Below, piece after piece: positions 39,895 to 48,226 of a DNA stretch of 64,000 bases. The position numbers and the translations under genes are program-made. The notes below the pieces were generated by a model. That model was not told the origin of the DNA and made no database searches. It was given only the letters and a program-made list of their open reading frames with translations. The DNA is taken from assembly GCF_004135365.1 (NCBI RefSeq), contig NZ_CP035492.1:1674001-1738000 (forward strand), in the 5' to 3' direction. This DNA comes from Paenibacillus protaetiae. Lineage in GTDB: Bacteria > Bacillota > Bacilli > Paenibacillales > Paenibacillaceae. How positions within the stretch are numbered: position 1 is the stretch's first letter; the number at the start of each line of letters is the position of its first letter.

Positions 39895-41043
39895 TCACAC
39901 TTCCGCTTCCGTTACACTGTTGAACCGGGATAAATGAAAAGGCGCAAGATCAAAGGCGGACTGGTTTCGGATAACCAAATCGCTAATGATTTCGCCGACA
40001 ACGCTGGAAAACTTGAAGCCATGCCCGGAAAATCCTCCTGCAACCAGGACATTCCGATGCTCCGGATGGGTATCGATAATAAAATCTTCGTCCGGCGTCA
40101 TCTCATATTTGCATATCCCGCCGCGGAGCAGCTTGCCTGCAGCCCGGGGCATATAAGCTTCAAGAGCACGGCGGAGATCCCGCTCGTCGTCTTCATAGGC
40201 GCCAAATGGCTCGAACGGCTCTCCTGGCCGCCAGCTTCTGCCCGCATCATGGCGGCCGATTTTCACTCCCGATCCGTCCCGGCTCGGAAAACCGTAATAA
40301 CCTCCCGAAGCATCGCCGAATGTAAAGCCTGGAAAATGGGCCGTATCAAACAGAAGATTATCACTCTGGAACCAGCCGACAACTTTACGGACCGGACGGA
40401 CCGGCATATCAATAAACGAACGGATAGATCCAAACCATGCCCCCAGACTCAACACCAGCTTATCCGCCGTATAAAGACCATGACGGGTCCGAACGCCGAA
40501 TCCTTCACCGGCCGCTTCAATGCCCTCCACCGGCGTATTCACCAGCATTTCTGCGCCATACGATTCCGCTTGCCGCCGGTACGTTCGCACACATACATCA
40601 CAAAGCAAATAACCCGCCTGCTGTTCATACAACCCCTGGAAGCCGTCCGGAAACTGAAATCCGCTCCAGCGTGTCCGGATCTCATCCGCATCCAGCAGCT
40701 CAACCGGAACATGGTATTGTGCAGAACGGTTTATTTTAGATGACAAAACCGACGCAGCCGGCGCCGCATTCAGCACGCCCGACCGGACAAGCAGCGTCTC
40801 GCCGGACTCCTGCTCCAGTTCCGTCCATAACCGGTCCGCCCTAAGCGCCATCTCCGTATAAACCGGGCTGCCGCTGTATACATGCCGCATTAAACGGGTA
40901 TCCCCATGATGGCTTCCGAATAGATGGGGAGGATCAAACGCATCAATAAGCAGCACGCGAACCCCTTGCCTTGCCAAATAATAACCGGCGCTCATGCCCA
41001 TAGATCCTGCTCCGACTACAATCACATCATAAGATGTATGCAT
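39895..41043 (-). CDS. FAD-dependent amine oxidase, MSOX/SolA (sarcosine/N-methyltryptophan oxidase) type
   Basis: Cytosolic flavoenzyme of 382 residues that oxidises secondary amines to an amine, an aldehyde and H2O2. The Rossmann start VIVVGAGSMGMSAGYYLARQG binds FAD. Cys311 in GGICKYEMTPDEDFIID corresponds to the cysteine that holds FAD covalently in this family, and GGFSGHGFKFSS is the C-terminal FAD contact. The start is ATG 41043 (AAGGAGG ahead), overlapping the ROK gene by 17 bases. Operon position after a sugar importer suggests a sugar-linked amine (for example a fructosyl-amino acid); simple N-methyl amino acids remain possible. Confidence 0.88.
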   Translation of the reverse strand: MHTSYDVIVVGAGSMGMSAGYYLARQGVRVLLIDAFDPPHLFGSHHGDTRLMRHVYSGSPVYTEMALRADRLWTELEQESGETLLVRSGVLNAAPAASVLSSKINRSAQYHVPVELLDADEIRTRWSGFQFPDGFQGLYEQQAGYLLCDVCVRTYRRQAESYGAEMLVNTPVEGIEAAGEGFGVRTRHGLYTADKLVLSLGAWFGSIRSFIDMPVRPVRKVVGWFQSDNLLFDTAHFPGFTFGDASGGYYGFPSRDGSGVKIGRHDAGRSWRPGEPFEPFGAYEDDERDLRRALEAYMPRAAGKLLRGGICKYEMTPDEDFIIDTHPEHRNVLVAGGFSGHGFKFSSVVGEIISDLVIRNQSAFDLAPFHLSRFNSVTEAEV

Positions 41044-42154
41044 ACTTCCCTCCTTGACTCCTGTAATTTTCGATAACAGCTCTTCCTGCACCAAATAATG
41101 AAGCATCGTCGCCTAGCGACGTCATATGCATTTTAGGCGTCACGCTGACAAGCACCGCCAAAGCGTTCGATAATCTGCCCAAAAAGTTGTCGATACCGTA
41201 AGCCATTCTGCCGCCAAAAACAAGCGTGTCCGGGTCCAGCAGCACGATAATGTTAACCATTGCATAGGCGATATGCTGAATGATCCGGTCTTCGAGCCGA
41301 ATATTTCTTTCCTGCGATTGAAACGTCTTATATCCGAACTGCGCTTCAAAATAGCCAAACCGGCCGGTCGATTGGTACGGATCTGCCTGGATCTGTCCAA
41401 CCGTAGCCGGATCGACAATCAGGCTGCCGATTTCTCCGGCTGCAAAATGCGCTCCTTTATACAGCTTGCCGTCCAGCAATATCCCAGCCCCTATTCCCCG
41501 GTCCAAGTGGATATAAACGGACATGCCCGCCCATGCCTTTCGTTTCCAGGAGTCGCCAATAGCCGCTAAGTTGACGTCATTCTCTACAACAACCGGACAG
41601 CTTAAGCATGCCGTATAATAGTGCAGAATAGGCTCCTGATGCCAATGGAGCTCCGGCGCATTGGACACAATGCCTTCATCGTTCACAACGCCGGGCACAA
41701 CCACGCACACACCTAGCCATAACTCGGGCTGAAGCTGCTGGGCTTGCATCAAGCCTGTCAGGCGGCTGACCGATTCTCTGCACTGCTCTTCGACGCTGCG
41801 GCCAGAAGGCTTGAATTGTTCCTCCGCATATACCTGTCCCGCCAAATTAGAGAGGCGGATGCGAAATTTATCCGCATTCATCTGAACCGCGCCAATAAAG
41901 CGCGCATCCGGGTTCAGCTTAATGAGCTGGGGCGGTTTGCCGCCATGCGATACACCGCCGCCTGCATTATGAATCCATCCTTCCTCCATCAGCTCCTTCA
42001 CGATCGAAGAAACAGTCGGAGGACTTATCCCCGACACAGCGCTTAACTCGGCCCGGCTTGTAATCCCCGCCTGTTCCAAAAAAGTAAGAATGGCATTCCG
42101 GTTGACCAGCCGCAGCATATTGGGCGTACCCGGCCTATTCTTTTTGTTGTCCAT
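41027..42154 (-). CDS. ROK family transcriptional regulator
   Basis: A 375-residue repressor-type ROK protein: an N-terminal winged helix (RNAILTFLEQAGITSRAELS, then SGISPPTVSSIVKELM) and a sugar-kinase-like C-terminal domain with DRGIGAGILLDGKLYKGAHF and GEIGSLIVD. Family members respond to a sugar or sugar phosphate. The zinc-binding CxCGxxGC cluster of classical ROK proteins is replaced by a cysteine-free stretch after GEIGSLIVD. It lies inside the importer operon, upstream of the oxidase, and is its likely regulator. ATG 42154 with GGAG eight bases ahead. Confidence 0.9.
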   Translation of the reverse strand: MDNKKNRPGTPNMLRLVNRNAILTFLEQAGITSRAELSAVSGISPPTVSSIVKELMEEGWIHNAGGGVSHGGKPPQLIKLNPDARFIGAVQMNADKFRIRLSNLAGQVYAEEQFKPSGRSVEEQCRESVSRLTGLMQAQQLQPELWLGVCVVVPGVVNDEGIVSNAPELHWHQEPILHYYTACLSCPVVVENDVNLAAIGDSWKRKAWAGMSVYIHLDRGIGAGILLDGKLYKGAHFAAGEIGSLIVDPATVGQIQADPYQSTGRFGYFEAQFGYKTFQSQERNIRLEDRIIQHIAYAMVNIIVLLDPDTLVFGGRMAYGIDNFLGRLSNALAVLVSVTPKMHMTSLGDDASLFGAGRAVIENYRSQGGKYAYIL

Positions 42155-42205: not shown

Positions 42206-43033
42206 CTAACCTTTCATTCCAGTAAGCGAAATACCTTCTACGATTCTTTTTTGAAAAATGAAGTAGACGATGACGATCGGGATTACGGCAAGTGTGCTCA
42301 TCGCCATAATGAGATTCCATTGCAGGCCTCCGGCATCCGCCGTTGAGAAAAGCGACATCCCGACAGGCAGCGTACGCATATTCTCATCGGAAATGACGAT
42401 AACCGGCCACAAATAAGCGTTCCAATTCCCGAGAAACGACAATATCCCCAGCGCCGCAAGGGCTTGCTTCACCTGAGGCAGCGCGATTTTAATAAAAATG
42501 CTGAAATCGCCCATTCCGTCAATCCGGGCAGCCTCCAACAGATCGTCGGGCACGGCATACATAAACTGCCGCATTAAAAATACGCCAAAGGCGCTCATAA
42601 TGCCCGGAAACATAATGCCCCAGTACGTATCCACCCAGCCCAAGTCTGCGCTCAACACATACCAAGGGATGACAAGCAGTTCGATTGGAATCATCATCGT
42701 GCTCAAAATAAGATAAAATACGATCTTGTTTCCCCGGAATCTGTATTTCGCCAGCGTATATCCGACCAGTGAAGCAAAAAACACCTCACTTACCGTTACC
42801 GCAATTCCCACGATAAAGCTGTTGCCGTACCAGCGGACATATTCCGTCTCCGAAAAAATAAATCGATACGCCTCAGTGGTCCAATGTTTCGGAAGAAAAT
42901 GAAAAGAATAAAACTCAGGAAGCGATTTAAAAGAAGATACAACCATCCAAACAAACGGGAGGGCTACGCCAAGCAGTCCGGCAAGCAGCACGATATGGGC
43001 GGCTATCGCCCCTGCATCCGTTTTTTTCCGCAT
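42206..43033 (-). CDS. Carbohydrate ABC transporter permease (CUT1, MalG-like)
   Basis: Inner-membrane permease of 275 residues with six helices and the EAA loop signature EAARIDGMGDFSIFIKIALPQVKQAL. The start is ATG 43033 after TTAAAGGAGGTGAGG. It pairs with the permease and lipoprotein encoded upstream. No ATP-binding subunit is encoded in the operon, as usual for CUT1 systems that share an MsmX-type ATPase. Confidence 0.95.
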   Translation of the reverse strand: MRKKTDAGAIAAHIVLLAGLLGVALPFVWMVVSSFKSLPEFYSFHFLPKHWTTEAYRFIFSETEYVRWYGNSFIVGIAVTVSEVFFASLVGYTLAKYRFRGNKIVFYLILSTMMIPIELLVIPWYVLSADLGWVDTYWGIMFPGIMSAFGVFLMRQFMYAVPDDLLEAARIDGMGDFSIFIKIALPQVKQALAALGILSFLGNWNAYLWPVIVISDENMRTLPVGMSLFSTADAGGLQWNLIMAMSTLAVIPIVIVYFIFQKRIVEGISLTGMKG

Positions 43034-43046
43034 CTCCTCACCTCCT

Positions 43047-43981
43047 TTAATAATCGGCCGACCGATTCAACAGCTTCATTTGAACCCCGGTAACCAGCAT
43101 CATTAATAGAAACAGAACGACGGTAACCGCGGAAGCAAACGGCATATTAAAATCGTTGAAGCCTTGATTGTATACATATACCACGATGCTGAGCGTGCTG
43201 TTGAGCGGGCCGCCGGCTTCTCCCCCGCTGCCCCGGTCATATTGGCGATTTGAGTAAATGTTTGCAGGGCGCCGATCACGCCGGTTACAGACAAGAACAC
43301 AATCGTAGGATTCAGAAGCGGCCACGTAATCGCCCAGAACAGATTCCAGCGGCTGGCGCCGTCGATTCGGGCAGCTTCGTAATAAGATTTGGAAATCGAC
43401 TCCAGCCCCGCCATAAAAATGAGCATAGAAAACCCGGACGCTTGCCAAATGATGACAATGCTTACGGAAATCAGCGCAAGCTGCGGATCATGCAGCCATT
43501 TTTGGGCAGGCAGATGCAGCCCTTTCAAGAAGATGTTGATGATGCCGTTATCCTGGTCATACATAAGCCGCCACACCCAGCTGATCGCTACGGCAGAAGT
43601 AATGTAGGGAAGGAAATAAAAGGTGCGGTAAAAACCTTTAAACCGGTTTACCCTTCCGATCAGCAGCGCCAGCACAAGGCCGATCCCCAGCTGGAAGGGC
43701 ACCGTGATTACTACGTAAAGCAGCGTATTGGCGATCGCGCGCCAAAATACTTGCGAAGTGAACATTTCCTCGTAATTGCTCAGCGTGTATCCCGGCCCTG
43801 ACTGCTTAAAAAAAGACATGGCGAATGCATAAAGCGTAGGGGCTATCCGGATTCCCAAAAAAAACAGCAGCGGCAGCGCCAAAAAAGTATAGGCTGTACG
43901 TGTTTTTTTGTTTTCCAAAGTCAGCCGGCTATACGCAGGCGCCGGCGATCCGGTACCGGCTTCGTACATTTTGCGTGCCAT
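43047..43981 (-). CDS. Carbohydrate ABC transporter permease (CUT1, MalF-like), frameshifted
   Basis: The partner permease, about 311 residues once corrected. The first frame (from ATG 43981) has the membrane helices and the EAA loop YYEAARIDGASRWNLFWAI. The second frame completes the protein with GGEAGGPLNSTLSIVVYVYN and the last helix to 43047. Adding one G in the G4 at 43231-43234 (plus-strand C run), or in the adjacent five-base run at 43222-43226, restores the frame. A sequencing artefact is suspected. Fourteen bases separate it from the next permease. Confidence 0.85.
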
Positions 43982-44067
43982 AAGCTTCACCGCCTTTTGC
44001 TCATCCTAACGGGCATTGGAGATACGCAGGTTTACACCCGCGTATCCCGCCCGCTGTACAGCATGGA

Positions 44068-45353
44068 TTAATTGTTATGCTGCTTAAAATATTCGTCCCG
44101 AATCGCCTGCTGCTTCCCGACCAGATCGTTAAACACTTTATCGACGGGAGCATGGTTCAGGAAAATTTCGTTCGTTTGGTCAATAATGAGCTGGCGTTCG
44201 TCTTTTTCGTTTACAAAATAAGTAGCGTGCGCCGCATTCAAGCCTTTGACGAAAGGTCCGTAGATCGGGTCGCCGATAATAGACTGATCGTCCGCAAATG
44301 ATGCGGCAGCCGGCAGCTCGCCGACGGCGGACAGCCAATATTTCTGCGTTTCTTCGGAGGTTAAAAACTTCAAAAACTTTTCGGATGCCTCCAGCTTTTT
44401 GCCCGTAACGCCTTTGGCAATGCCGTGGACCCAATAAGAACCAAAGTTCGATTCCAATCCGCCTTCTTCTTTGGTTGGTATCGTTGCAACCCCCCAATCG
44501 GCATTCGTCGATTTCTTGGTTGTTTCGATCGCAAACGATCCGTCGATGATCATGCCCGCTTTGCCAGCCTGGAAGGCAGTCTCATACCCCTGATTGAAGT
44601 TCTGATCACCAATTTTGAACGTGTCAAACATATCGATCCAATATTTAAAAGCTTCCAGACCGGCAGGCGCAGCATTCCACTGTACTTTCCTGTTATCCTC
44701 GCTGTAAGGGGTAACCCCCATTGGCGCAGTAAAATTTCTTCAAAAACGTGGAAGCCCTGTCCGCTTACATCCGGCGCAAAACCTTCCTGCGTTAATGTGC
44801 CGTTATCGTAGACCGTCATTTTCTGCGCATCTTTGATCAGTTCATCCCATGTCTTTGGCGGGGCTTCCGGATCAAGGCCGGCTTTTCGGAACAAGTCCTT
44901 GTTGTAAAATAGGGCAAGCGAACGGACGGCCGTCGGAATAGCATAATATTGCCCGTCCAGCTTCGAATCCCGCACCATCGGAATATAGTAATTATCGATA
45001 TCCTTCGTGCTCATCAAATCTTGCGGAATCGGCTGCAAGTAACCCTGCTGCACATATTGAGGAATCCAGCCGTAATACAAATTCAAGATTTCAGGCCCTT
45101 TTTTCGCATTGACCGCAGCGGCTACCTTCTGGTTGTATTGGTCGTAAGGAAAGTCCTGGGCGACCACTTTAATATTCGGGTTCTGTGCCTCGAAGTCTTC
45201 AATCAGCTTCTTGATCGCCGTTATCTTGGAAGGGTAGCTGTACTGCCAGTAGGTGATCGTCACCTTGTCTCCATCTCCTCCGCTAGAGCCGCAGCCTGCA
45301 AGGAGCACAACCGTCAAAGCAAATACGAGAATCCATTTTAAATTTCTAAGCAT
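44068..45353 (-). CDS. Sugar ABC transporter substrate-binding lipoprotein, frameshifted
   Basis: Extracellular CUT1 solute-binding protein, about 428 residues when one G is added at 44715-44719 (plus-strand C5 run). Lipobox LAGC with Cys21 after a 20-residue signal sequence; then the family start VTITYWQYS and PNIKVVAQDFPYDQYNQKV. The second frame continues PYSEDNRKVQWNAAPAG to the end KQQAIRDEYFKQHNN. It begins the operon behind a strong promoter. The ligand cannot be read from sequence. Confidence 0.86.
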
Positions 45354-45413
45354 TGCGTTTCCCTCCCCAAATTAGAACCTTACTTAACTTTCCGAACAAA
45401 GGTTGTGAGACCG

Positions 45414-45443
45414 ATTATAAATTAGGTTATAATTTCCAGTCAA
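45414..45443 (-). promoter_or_regulatory. SigA-type promoter of the ABC-ROK-oxidase operon
   Basis: Minus strand TTGACT (45443-45438), 18 bases, TATAAT (45419-45414). An inverted repeat AACCTT-N17-AAGGTT (45376-45404) lies just downstream and could be an operator. Confidence 0.75.
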
Positions 45444-45565
45444 TCCTTAATTCCTAGATTGACAAATGGAATACTCGGGATTAAGATGACGGTATATTTA
45501 GAGCTTATTTACAAAATATGGTCATCGTATCGTCGATACGGCTCCACCTTTGTTAACCTTCTTAA

Positions 45566-45594
45566 TTAACTTTTTTCTTTAGTGCCTTTATTTT
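45566..45594 (+). promoter_or_regulatory. Candidate promoter for the ArgH-like/yojF/bshB2 unit
   Basis: Plus strand TTAACT, 17 bases, TATTTT, about 30 bases before the start codon at 45623. The match is weak. A perfect 7-base inverted repeat CGTATCG-T-CGATACG lies upstream at 45526-45540. Confidence 0.35.
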
Positions 45595-45622
45595 GTGTGT
45601 ACAGACCTGAGGAGGTAGACAA

Positions 45623-47125
45623 ATGGGAATAAAACAAGCGATATTCGAACGTGAAGGCAGCTCCTTCCCGGGAGCCACCTATTCAGAGGTCGTGCTTGCT
45701 CCGGCTTATGAACAAGCCAAATCCGTCCTGCTTCACCCCATGCTGGCGATTCATAAAGCGCATCTGATTATGCTGGTAGAGCAGTCGCTGCTCTCGCGCG
45801 AACAGGCTGCAGCCATTGTACAGGCCATTCGCAGCTTAAATCCGGCAGCCATTACCCAGACGACGTACGACGGCCATTATGAGGATCTGTTTTTCCTGGT
45901 CGAAAGCCAAATTATGCAGCGCGCCGGAGAAATCGGCGGCAGCCTGCATCTCGCCCGCAGCCGAAACGATATGGGAGTCGCCATGTACAGGCTGACGCTT
46001 CGCGACAAGCTGCTCGTAACAATCACTTCCGCGGTTTCCTTCCTGCATACGCTGCTGGATACGGCGGACAACCATACGAATACGGTTATGCTGGGCTACA
46101 CGCATACCCAGCAGGCGCAGCCCATGACATTCGCCCATTATATAACGGCAGTATTCGACTCCGTCAGCCGGGATGTCAAACGGTTAACAGCTGCTTACGA
46201 TACGAATAATGCAAGCCCGCTTGGAGCTGCAGCCTTAACAACCTCCGGATTTCCGATAAGCCGACAGCGTGTGGCCGATCTGCTTGCTTTTGACAGGCTG
46301 GTGGAAAACTCCTACGATGCGATTGGCGGCGCCGATTATTTAGGAGAAACTGCCTCCGCGCTTAAATTGTCGTTTATCGGCATCGGGCGTTTCGTCCAGG
46401 ATCTTCTGCTCTGGTCTACCCAGGAATTTGCCGCCATTCGCGTCGCTGACCCTTATGTACAAATCAGCTCCATCATGCCGCAAAAACGCAACCCTGTTTC
46501 CCTGGAGCATATCCGCTCGCTTAGTTCCAGCGGCGTGGGCAGCGCATCCACTGTTCTTCAGATGCTCCACAATACCCCATTTGGCGACATCGTGGATACA
46601 GAAGACGATCTCCAGCCGCATCTGTGGCAATCCCTGCATTTGTCCGATCAGCTGTTCCGTTTATTCGCGGCCGTCATCGGCACGCTTGAAGTAAACAAAG
46701 AAGTGCTGCTTGAACGGGCAAAGCGAAGCTTCGCTTCGATTACCGAGCTTGCCGATTCACTGGTCCGGGAGAAGCAAATCCCTTTCCGGAGCGCGCACTC
46801 CATTGCCAGCGGCGTCGTGAAGCTGGCGTTGTCGCGCGGCCTTGACGCGACGCAAGTGACAAGCACTCTGATTGATGAAGTAGCGGAGCCAATTATTGGC
46901 GCCCCGCTCTATTTGCCGGCGGAGATTGTGTCACGCGCCATGGACCCTGTCCATTTCGTAGAAATTCGCAAGCTGACGGGCGGGCCGTCGCCTGCGGAAG
47001 TATCCAGAGCATTAGCCGCACGACGCCTTAAGCTGCAGGAAATCCAAAGCTGGCTGGATACGCAGAAAACACAAATATCCCGGGCCTATGCCGAACTGGA
47101 CGAAATTACAGATGCATGGCTGTAG
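45623..47125 (+). CDS. Argininosuccinate lyase-like protein (ArgH paralogue)
   Basis: A 500-residue member of the fumarase/aspartase superfamily, closest to ArgH. Motifs: LHLARSRND (about 109-116), LGYTHTQQAQP (157-167) and the flexible signature SSIMPQKRNP (282-291) with Ser and Lys. Two positions usual in ArgH are changed: Met instead of Gln after SRND, and Val instead of Asp after KRNP, and Gly is lost before SSIMP. The substrate is therefore probably not argininosuccinate. The reaction class expected is C-N bond cleavage releasing fumarate, or its reverse. ATG 45623 follows GAGGAGGTAG. It is the first gene of a unit with yojF and bshB2; no arginine gene is near. Confidence 0.85.
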   Translation: MGIKQAIFEREGSSFPGATYSEVVLAPAYEQAKSVLLHPMLAIHKAHLIMLVEQSLLSREQAAAIVQAIRSLNPAAITQTTYDGHYEDLFFLVESQIMQRAGEIGGSLHLARSRNDMGVAMYRLTLRDKLLVTITSAVSFLHTLLDTADNHTNTVMLGYTHTQQAQPMTFAHYITAVFDSVSRDVKRLTAAYDTNNASPLGAAALTTSGFPISRQRVADLLAFDRLVENSYDAIGGADYLGETASALKLSFIGIGRFVQDLLLWSTQEFAAIRVADPYVQISSIMPQKRNPVSLEHIRSLSSSGVGSASTVLQMLHNTPFGDIVDTEDDLQPHLWQSLHLSDQLFRLFAAVIGTLEVNKEVLLERAKRSFASITELADSLVREKQIPFRSAHSIASGVVKLALSRGLDATQVTSTLIDEVAEPIIGAPLYLPAEIVSRAMDPVHFVEIRKLTGGPSPAEVSRALAARRLKLQEIQSWLDTQKTQISRAYAELDEITDAWL

Positions 47126-47169
47126 CCTTGGAGATAGCAAATAACGGAACGATAAGGAGCTGATTCGGT

Positions 47170-47513
47170 ATGCAGCCTATTCATAAACAGCAAGTCCAGG
47201 AAAAACTCGATTCGTTTTTGAACCAGGACGTCTTTCTCCATCTGGAAACGACAACCGGATCCTACGCTTCCCTGAAAGGGGAGAAAGCGGTATCTGTCTG
47301 CGCTTTTATCCGAAATGGCAAAATTCATTATGAACGCGGACAAATTACAGGCAGCGGGCCGTTCCGCGTCGGATTGAAGATGGGGAAGGCTGGGTTTATG
47401 CAGAAGGTCTTACCGACTTTGAGGTGATGGAGGACCATAAGCTGCTCCTTGCCGGCCACGATGAAGAGGGGCAACTGGGCATCGCTCTGCAGCTTAGCCC
47501 AAAACCGTTTTGA
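47170..47513 (+). CDS. yojF: YojF family protein (DUF1806), frameshifted
   Basis: About 114 residues when one G is added at 47382-47385. The first frame has DVFLHLETTTGSYASLKGEK and AFIRNGKIHYERGQITG, typical of YojF. The second frame continues EGWVYAEGLTDFEV and LLLAGHDEEGQLGIALQLS to a TGA at 47511-47513. In Bacillus yojF is next to yojG/bshB2, exactly as here; its role is unknown. A ribosome site (GATAAGGAG) precedes ATG 47170, 44 bases after the lyase stop. Confidence 0.85.
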
Positions 47514-47533
47514 CGATAGAGAGGAGAATGAAG

Positions 47534-48226
47534 ATGAGCCGCCCCGTATTAGCGGTCTTCCCGCATCCTGACGACGAATCCTTTGGCAAAGCAGGCGCTC
47601 TCGCGCTGCATGCAAAGGAAGGTTCACCAATTACTTTAATTTGCGCCACCTCCGGACAAATGGGACGACGGATGGGCAACCCTTTTTTCGCTAATCGCGA
47701 AACATTGCCTCATATCCGGGAAAAAGAGCTGCAAGACGCCTGCCTGGCAATCGGCATTACGGATTTGCGGATGTGGGGACTCTTGGATAAAACACTTCAG
47801 TTCGAGGATCCGGAGCAATTAGCAGACCGGATTTACGAAACCATTCTAGAAATCCGCCCTTTCCGGATTTATTCGTATTATCCCGAACACGGCGTACATC
47901 CCGACCATGACGCCCTTGCGGATGCCACCATCCGTGCAGTTGCCCGGCTGCCGCTTGAAGAAAGACCCGAAATTTACGCTTCTGCCTTCTCCAAAAACTG
48001 TCTGGAAGCGCTTGGCGCTCCCGATGTTGTGCTGAATGTTTCAAGCGTGCTGCACGAGAAAATGGCGGCTATCCGCGCGCACCGCTCCCAATCGGAAGTC
48101 ATCACCCGCAAGCTGGATGAACAGCTGGCGTCCGGCAGCGCACTCGAAGAGGAGCTGCTGGCGCCGCAAAAACGCGAGCAGTTCTGGATATACCGCTGGA
48201 CAGACACGCTTGCGCAGCATCCATAA
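47534..48226 (+). CDS. bshB2: Bacillithiol biosynthesis deacetylase BshB2
   Basis: Zinc-dependent LmbE-like deacetylase of 230 residues. In Bacillus it removes acetyl from GlcNAc-malate in bacillithiol synthesis, or acts on bacillithiol conjugates. Metal-binding HPDDES is at residues 11-16, with GVHPDHDALADATI later. The ATG at 47534 is preferred: GAGAGGAG lies seven bases upstream, whereas the earlier ATG at 47528 is too close. It follows yojF by 20 bases and ends before a bidirectional terminator. bshA and bshC are not in the window. Confidence 0.9.
   Translation: MSRPVLAVFPHPDDESFGKAGALALHAKEGSPITLICATSGQMGRRMGNPFFANRETLPHIREKELQDACLAIGITDLRMWGLLDKTLQFEDPEQLADRIYETILEIRPFRIYSYYPEHGVHPDHDALADATIRAVARLPLEERPEIYASAFSKNCLEALGAPDVVLNVSSVLHEKMAAIRAHRSQSEVITRKLDEQLASGSALEEELLAPQKREQFWIYRWTDTLAQHP

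Follow-up and report, generated by a model that had tools for sequence, protein, structure and literature searches.

A possible bacillithiol-scavenging role for an ArgH-like lyase family of Bacilli and alphaproteobacteria

A lyase gene of Paenibacillus protaetiae that automatic annotation would assign to arginine synthesis looks instead like a likely part of a pathway for the uptake and breakdown of the sugar-malate portion of bacillithiol (BSH). It lies in a stretch of 64,000 nucleotides of contig NZ_CP035492.1, hereafter the window. We lean slightly towards the view that the lyase catalyzes the committed step in the catabolism of the bacillithiol glucosaminyl-malate core. Chances seem about even for the broader proposal that ArgH-like β-elimination of a sugar-malate glycoside forms a dedicated bacillithiol (GlcN-malate) scavenging pathway in Bacilli, some of them without BshC, and in alphaproteobacteria, hidden in databases as argH. 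BSH (Cys-GlcN-malate) is a main thiol of many Gram-positive bacteria and its synthesis is known; in the open-access literature we found no described breakdown route for its sugar-malate core. If true, the proposal would add a reaction to those known for the argininosuccinate lyase fold, imply the use of other cells' antioxidant as a nutrient and call for the correction of a set of 'argH' annotations. The features of the locus are:

39895–41106, minus strand: FAD-dependent amine oxidase (SolA/monomeric sarcosine oxidase-like), accessory; NF008425, 425.8 bits against a cut-off of 257
41027–42154, minus strand: ROK-family regulator; best NCBIfam match a NagC model, below cut-off
42206–43033, minus strand: ABC permease (MalG-like), intact; 75% identity to the L006 orthologue
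43047–43990, minus strand: ABC permease (MalF-like), frameshift near 43169–43232 (G-run); tblastn, two frames
44068–45353, minus strand: sugar-type ABC solute-binding protein gene, frameshift near 44712 (G-run); tblastn with L006/L022 orthologues, two frames
45354–45622, no strand: divergent control region containing two AT-rich elements that resemble each other, at about 45378–45402 and 45550–45575; shared short words
45623–47125, plus strand: ArgH-like lyase, proposed glucosaminyl-malate lyase (fumarate-forming); PF00206 and PF14698, clade, family signature, fold
47170–47513, plus strand: yojF (DUF1806), interrupted once by a frameshift (G-run, near 47385); PF08830 in two frames
47534–48226, plus strand: bshB2-type PIG-L deacetylase/amidase, second copy in the genome; TIGR04000

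The original prediction had read the gene at 45623–47125 as a divergent member of the ArgH family, and the domain matches of its 500-amino-acid product confirm this (PF00206 Lyase_1, 142.3 against a cut-off of 27; PF14698 ASL_C2, 47.5 against 27.3). The top NCBIfam model by score is PRK06705 (NF005218, 'argininosuccinate lyase'), matched over nearly the full protein at 466.4 bits, far under its cut-off of 883. The predicted structure (pLDDT 90) has EDDS lyase and ArgH as its top fold matches; the EDDS lyase of Chelativorans (6g3d, 6rx8) is the best PDB match by sequence and heads the fold search when hits are ranked by E-value. That the gene is not an arginine gene by context also held: an adjacent argG-argH pair occupies a different locus of this genome (L003), which excludes the window lyase being the sole candidate for argH. 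Besides argGH, the genome separately carries fumC, aspA and purB.

Relatives of the lyase form one clade with the ArgH rows outside it (SH-aLRT 98, in a quick tree with SH-aLRT as its sole support measure and some long branches). A signature combining SSIMPQKRNPV..EH.R with HNTP..D..D.E occurs in all 162 family loci and in none of 13 outside lyases, five of them ArgH rows; its second part was loosened after the alignment had been viewed, a stricter form having matched 0/13 alphaproteobacterial loci. The window lyase sits in this alignment and carries the signature. In contrast, the ArgH substrate motif YN.D[LM]QEDK was found in 0/162 family loci versus 3/13 outside loci. The family thus shares with ArgH (TIGR00838) its fold, both domains and residues T160-H161, S282/S283, K288, N290 and E295, but it forms its own clade, lacks an arginine context and has HNTPxxDxxDxE in place of YNxDxQEDK. 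The individual changes named at the outset are also correct for the window lyase: the Gln after SRND is Met (SRNDQ to SRNDM, M117), the Asp after KNP has become Val (V292) and SSIMPQK has lost its preceding Gly.

We compared the substrate pocket with that of EDDS lyase by alignment, using the substrate-proximal residues listed in PMC12363623 (R112, N113, Q159, N288, D290 and Y320). R112, N113 and N288 are kept in the window lyase as R114, N115 and N290, whereas Q159, D290 and Y320 correspond to H161, V292 and D322 (by MAFFT; phmmer sets Y320 one column later). By alignment, the catalytic and fumarate-side residues are kept, and the ArgH motif and the residues on the leaving-group side are replaced.

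As originally described, yojF and bshB2 follow the lyase on the plus strand with no plus-strand terminator-like site in either gap (44 nt between lyase and yojF, about 20 nt between yojF and bshB2); two such matches lie within the lyase gene and within bshB2. The product of 47534–48226 scores 285.7 bits against TIGR04000 (cut-off 195.25). BSH-conjugate amidase activity is reported for BshB2 (PMC5815605), and an N-acylglucosamine core is the target of those PIG-L/LmbE enzymes that were known by 2014 (PMC4101496). The window pair keeps the YojF partner of BshB2/Bca and differs in lying beside a lyase and an importer, as a paralogue that is distinct from the genome's canonical copy. That second yojF-bshB2 pair is intact and lies at another locus. 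Also away from the window locus are bshC, additional PIG-L genes, and bshA, whose PIG-L neighbour we read as bshB1. The lyase-linked pair is therefore extra, and we rejected a role for the window cluster in BSH synthesis.

The linked yojF was an additional copy in 6/6 distinct genomes; that YojF and BshB2 travel together even as a duplicate pair suggests that they work as partners. Among the genomes covered, the linkage occurs in these six only (5 of 21 clade-A loci plus the window); elsewhere it occurred at 0/29 other family loci and at 1/40 class loci, where the species was that of L022. BshB2 copies from the six linkages cluster in the tree (86/90; in 84% of bootstrap trees), and the clusters are not independent since they may have spread as one unit.

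The original grouping of lyase, yojF and bshB2 is real, but the conserved unit is larger than three genes and its setting catabolic. Both in Bacilli and on plasmids of alphaproteobacteria, many relatives adjoin an ABC importer, a ROK regulator, an amide hydrolase (PIG-L or other) and a sugar kinase, and a few adjoin a GlcN-6-P deaminase or a class I fumarase. Intact clusters are those of Pullulanibacillus camelliae (L019) and Loktanella salsilacus (L241). We counted neighbours by phmmer labels in the sequence fetched around each lyase, about 8 kb to either side. In the class sample (40 loci fetched of 71 matches), importers were labelled at 32 loci, PIG-L at 22, kinase at 19, ROK at 19, NagB at one and none of these at two; the family sample (29 loci) gave importers at 27, some amide hydrolase at 24, kinase at nine and none at two. 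Twelve annotated loci on alphaproteobacterial plasmids all had a sugar ABC system, with a ROK regulator at nine, a sugar kinase at eight, PIG-L at seven and NagB at three. NagB immediately adjoins the lyase at L023 and L035, the alpha and beta subunits of class I fumarase lie directly upstream of it at L071, and genes of matching lengths lie upstream at L031 and L069. None of the seeded partners was found at 10 of the 21 clade-A loci, which are near relatives. Judged by eye, PIG-L seems to carry a signal peptide at the majority of 14 Bacillota loci.

BshC was present in 69/71 lyase-positive and 99/132 lyase-negative genomes of the class samples, relatedness being ignored. Because two lyase-positive genomes (G256 and G290) and, to our knowledge, the alphaproteobacteria are without BshC, the lyase would be linked to BSH by chemistry and not by strict co-occurrence.

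In the pathway we propose, a binding-protein ABC importer under ROK control would take up BSH, GlcNAc-malate or GlcN-malate, and a PIG-L amide hydrolase would remove the N-acyl group; at the window locus this would be the extra BshB2 with YojF, and at other loci a secreted or cytosolic PIG-L protein or perhaps a creatininase-like or Amidohydro_2 protein. The lyase would then β-eliminate the glycosidic oxygen from malate, yielding fumarate, which would enter the TCA cycle, and glucosamine, which a sugar kinase would convert to GlcN-6-P and NagB to fructose-6-P. We found no kinase or NagB gene near the window locus, and this strain would need genes elsewhere for these two steps. The original suggestion of a malate- or fumarate-linked compound tied to bacillithiol fits this wider neighbourhood, but it considered three genes only and named no reaction; we infer the substrate, the C–O cleavage and the order of steps. 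Counting against the pathway are the few genomes with yojF-bshB2 linkage, the clade-A loci with none of the seeded partners, the small number of NagB and fumarase neighbours and the presence of FAD oxidase, creatininase and Amidohydro_2 partners without a clear step. Fumarate formation would be measurable at 240 nm (assay from PMC2779060).

The proposed scheme works like the MurNAc-6-P etherase pathway, in which MurQ acts with MurK/NagB and a hydroxy-acid is likewise stripped from an amino sugar, alongside a kinase and NagB; the enzymes are unrelated, and MurQ acts on a lactyl ether whereas the bond here would be a malyl glycoside. We know of no other compound of the glucosaminyl-malate kind than the bacillithiol core, and of no glycoside C–O elimination in this superfamily, whose ArgH-type members mostly cleave C–N bonds; a literature search for a C–O eliminating relative found none. 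XcbC of coenzyme M synthesis (NF052535), ArgH-like as is the window lyase, eliminates phosphate, so an ArgH-like fold should be capable of C–O elimination. L254, which lies beside phosphosulfolactate synthase and which we take to be an XcbC homologue, differs in lacking equivalents of N115 and H161 and falls outside the clade, its place being unsure because of a very long branch.

The main rival, in our view unlikely, is that the enzyme is a C–N lyase that releases fumarate and an amino sugar from an aspartate adduct of a sugar or amino sugar (either an N-(dicarboxyethyl)amino sugar or a compound of the Amadori type, for instance fructosyl-aspartate). Both ArgH and EDDS lyase cleave C–N bonds, a sugar kinase and NagB would still be compatible, and a secondary amine would suit the FAD amine oxidase at the window locus. 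Distant relatives (33–34%) on Agrobacterium and Cereibacter plasmids lie with asparaginase, MmgE/PrpD and a SIS protein, and in Agrobacterium also with a PfkB kinase, a gene set that suggests sugar-asparagine use; a SIS protein also occurs at one alphaproteobacterial family locus, L246. However, these distant lyases branch outside the clade and do not carry its signature, a C–N lyase would leave no role for the PIG-L hydrolases, BshB2 above all, and no abundant natural N-succinyl amino sugar is known to us.

Less probable still is that the same reaction serves internal recycling, with the lyase degrading GlcN-malate left by BSH-S-conjugate amidase during detoxification and uptake being secondary. 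The reported cleavage of BSH conjugates by BshB2 (PMC5815605) would leave GlcN-malate, and BshC is present in 69/71 lyase-positive class genomes, but the importer labels (32/40 class and 27/29 family loci), the apparent signal peptides on PIG-L and the operon's occurrence on alphaproteobacterial plasmids and in two Bacilli without BshC argue against it. We hold it quite improbable that the enzyme is an EDDS-type lyase for an aminopolycarboxylate or metallophore: EDDS lyase is its closest solved relative by sequence and fold search, and the importer binding protein at many loci most closely resembles 2-aminoethylphosphonate-type models (with a score below cut-off in the one tested), but the positions of D290 and Y320 are V and D in 44/44 aligned family rows, and the GlcN-type kinase, NagB and PIG-L neighbours would be left unexplained. 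A second argininosuccinate lyase, very improbable although TIGR00838 is passed (339.8 against 279.5), was rejected given the separate clade, the absence of the ArgH motif throughout the family and the argH beside argG.

Under the scavenging pathway, the minus-strand importer and ROK genes of the window locus would supply import and control. The ROK regulator holds the same relative position at L006, L021 and L022, the L022 orthologue of the solute-binding protein is SBP_bac_1, and homologues of the FAD oxidase occur nearby, within the fetched stretch, at 6/29 family and 1/40 class loci. The control region at 45354–45622 has promoter-like sites on both strands and short words in common with the upstream regions of L021 and L022. 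A palindrome search for ROK operators returned just weak shared AT-rich words, and the two AT-rich elements are possible, weak operator candidates. Three genes of the locus (yojF, the solute-binding protein and the MalF-like permease) are frameshifted at G-runs. The break in yojF, overlooked in the original prediction, is a single frameshift, since the two halves of DUF1806 match in different frames (positions 1–72 at 47176–47394 and 70–112 at 47382–47510). These frameshifts count against the proposed pathway, as does the split lyase ORF at L021.

The lyase is followed on the same strand by yojF and bshB2, with an importer gene set divergent from it:

45623-47125, +, lyase, 500 aa
47170-47513, +, yojF, frameshifted
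47534-48226, +, bshB2
45353 down to 39895, −, ABC solute-binding protein, two permeases, ROK regulator and FAD amine oxidase (SolA type), divergent from the lyase

The residues named in the original prediction were read correctly: the lyase carries SRNDM and SSIMPQKRNPV, and the Gly preceding the signature is missing. No kinase or NagB of the relatives' type was seen in the neighbourhood of the window lyase. The binding protein, one permease (both within 43047-45353) and yojF (47170-47513) each contain one frame change at a G-run; the lyase, bshB2, the ROK gene and the second permease are intact. Both homopolymer sequencing or assembly error and early decay of the locus are possible causes, and our functional arguments rest on relatives. 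By eye, other window ORFs look full-length, unlike the three frameshifted genes. The lyase gene of Gordonibacillus kamchatkensis consists of two overlapping ORFs on a draft contig (L021:6001-7505).

The 4.23-Mb genome encodes five Lyase_1 proteins, named by reading their translations: fumC, aspA, argH (adjoining argG), purB (adjoining purK) and the window lyase. bshC lies at 0.589 Mb and bshA at 1.517 Mb, next to a PIG-L gene that we read as bshB1 from its position and sequence. A second, intact yojF adjoins a BshB2 gene at 2.869 Mb (274.4 bits; cut-off 195.25), so the window yojF-bshB2 pair is an extra copy. Besides the window genome, lyase-linked pairs of this kind were seen in Gordonibacillus, an Alicyclobacillus MAG, two Neobacillus species and Pullulanibacillus. 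All six distinct genomes with lyase-linked yojF (that of the window plus the L008, L015, L019, L021 and L022 genomes; G452 and G610 are one genome) have an additional yojF elsewhere. Their six lyase-linked BshB2 proteins form one group (86/90; 84% of bootstrap trees) separate from the canonical copies. Judged qualitatively, this repeated linkage is hard to attribute to chance, although the lyase-yojF-bshB2 cluster may have spread as one unit. Within the family of P. protaetiae, yojF occurs in 202 of 245 genomes and the lyase in 30 (E≤1e-90).

In a quick maximum-likelihood tree (several long branches, no bootstrap), 44 rows from Bacilli and alphaproteobacteria formed one clade (SH-aLRT 98), with ArgH, EDDS lyase, XcbC and asparaginase-linked lyases outside it. 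T160, H161, S282, S283, K288, N290 and E295 are kept in all 44 rows, which also share residues found in none of five ArgH rows (e.g. F90, F91, T207, Q280, R289, V292, H296, H316, T318, D322 and E327). The motif SSIMPQKRNPV..EH.R occurs at 162/162 family loci versus 0/13 others, as does HNTP..D..D.E (149/149 Bacilli-set and 13/13 alphaproteobacterial loci versus 0/13), some loci being one species; the latter is a loosened form of a stricter version that missed all 13 alphaproteobacterial loci. The ArgH motif was found at 0/162 family loci and 3/13 others. In a fold search with the AlphaFold model (pLDDT 90, pTM 0.89), EDDS lyase ranked top (TM 0.84-0.86, whole-chain rmsd ~9), followed by ArgH (TM ~0.8, rmsd ~3). 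PMC12363623 names six substrate-near residues of EDDS lyase picked for mutagenesis; R112, N113 and N288 are kept in the window lyase, whereas Q159, D290 and Y320 are changed.

We read the neighbourhoods of 80 relatives (kept from 106, nearly all titled Bacilli or Bacillota, one Chryseobacterium), 29 family loci and 40 loci picked to spread across families from the 71 of 398 class genomes with the lyase (E≤1e-120); a few species are common to more than one set. Four arrangements are seen repeatedly: (I) sugar-type importer, ROK, lyase, kinase (not always), yojF and bshB2; (II) ROK, aminoethylphosphonate-like importer, secreted PIG-L, sometimes a creatininase-like gene, lyase, kinase and PIG-L; (III) lyase, Amidohydro_2 and sugar-type importer, with an FAD oxidase in some; and (IV) PIG-L, ROK, importer and lyase, with kinase or NagB in some.

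Neighbour counts by locus set (phmmer labels inside the fetched stretch, without one-by-one checking)
Class sample, n=40: importer 32, PIG-L 22, kinase 19, ROK 19, creatininase 4, NagB 1, yojF 1; no labelled partner 2
Family sample, n=29: importer 27, any amide hydrolase 24 (Amidohydro_2 15, PIG-L 9, creatininase 8), kinase 9, FAD oxidase 6, ROK 1, yojF 0; no labelled partner 2
Clade A (near relatives), n=21: importer 10, PIG-L 7, kinase 6, ROK 6, yojF 5; no seeded partner nearby 10 (L009-L014, L016, L018 and L024 among them)

The partnerless clade-A lyases may either have their pathway genes elsewhere or serve a different role. Two kinases tested each had a single NCBIfam match, NagK, below cut-off, and one is BcrAD_BadFG by Pfam. 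NagB directly adjoins the lyase at two loci, scoring above the TIGR00502 cut-off in L035 and below cut-off in L023. In the latter, from Alicyclobacillus ferrooxydans (L023:1696-5979), two BcrAD-like kinases, a family 4 glycosidase and the NagB-like protein precede the lyase. Amidohydro_2 lies between lyase and importer at 15/29 family loci (L139-L157), in the place of PIG-L at other loci, and may be an amide hydrolase of unrelated origin that takes over this step. PIG-L proteins of ~840 aa, mostly apparently secreted, accompany the lyase at loci within L129-L137, L193-L207 and L213-L226, though not at all of them; both of those tested also carry an NPCBM_assoc domain. A SolA/monomeric sarcosine oxidase-like FAD enzyme lies near the lyase in the window (39895-41106) and in L145, L149, L152, L153, L155 and L156.

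In Fictibacillus (L071), the lyase is preceded by genes for fumarate reductase/succinate dehydrogenase flavoprotein and iron-sulfur subunits, a second FAD_binding_2 protein and class I fumarase alpha and beta (Pfam). Upstream of the lyase in both L031 and L069 are genes of matching lengths, consistent with gene clusters that have members at three loci.

Lyases of this superfamily target a succinyl-type unit and release fumarate or a similar product, and to our knowledge the bacillithiol core is the sole natural glucosamine-malate compound. The kinase and NagB point to glucosamine, and the fumarase to fumarate. The PIG-L/LmbE enzymes described up to 2014 have substrates with an N-acetyl- or N-acyl-glucosamine core (PMC4101496), and BshB2 reportedly cleaves bacillithiol conjugates (PMC5815605). 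These activities, the lyase chemistry, the gene context and the bacillithiol core together lead us to propose a glucosaminyl-malate pathway, whose gene context is directly observed. The substrate would be taken up and deacylated; the lyase, whose substrate and bond broken we infer, would then release fumarate and glucosamine by beta-elimination, and the glucosamine would be phosphorylated and passed to NagB. In a library of open-access papers, we found no pathway for breakdown of the bacillithiol sugar-malate unit (titles and abstract openings), no paper matching bacillithiol together with YojF, and none combining PIG-L, argininosuccinate lyase and ROK family.

BshC was present in 69/71 lyase-positive class genomes and in 99/132 lyase-negative genomes from a class sample of 151 (116/151 with BshC, minus 19 lyase-positive genomes, 17 of these with BshC; Fisher p 2.4e-5, relatedness ignored), an association that is weak because many of the 71 genomes belong to one family. 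The two lyase-positive genomes lacking BshC, G256 (type II cluster, L193) and G290 (L220), fit scavenging better than synthesis.

A similar layout occurs on alphaproteobacterial plasmids (27 records, E≤1e-80), most of which list the lyase as argH. We compared 13 of these loci; all 12 annotated ones have a binding protein, two sugar permeases and an ATPase right after the lyase, with a ROK regulator in nine, sugar kinase in eight, PIG-L in seven and NagB in three (two of one species). By eye, no signal peptide was seen in the alphaproteobacterial PIG-L proteins, in contrast to most Bacillota PIG-L proteins displayed. More distant lyase relatives occur in other settings, one of which looks like a coenzyme M cluster. 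On Agrobacterium and Cereibacter plasmids (L234, L235), a 33-34%-identical lyase has as neighbours asparaginase, an ABC importer for amino acids, MmgE/PrpD and a SIS protein; this set might serve to use fructosyl-asparagine through a lyase.
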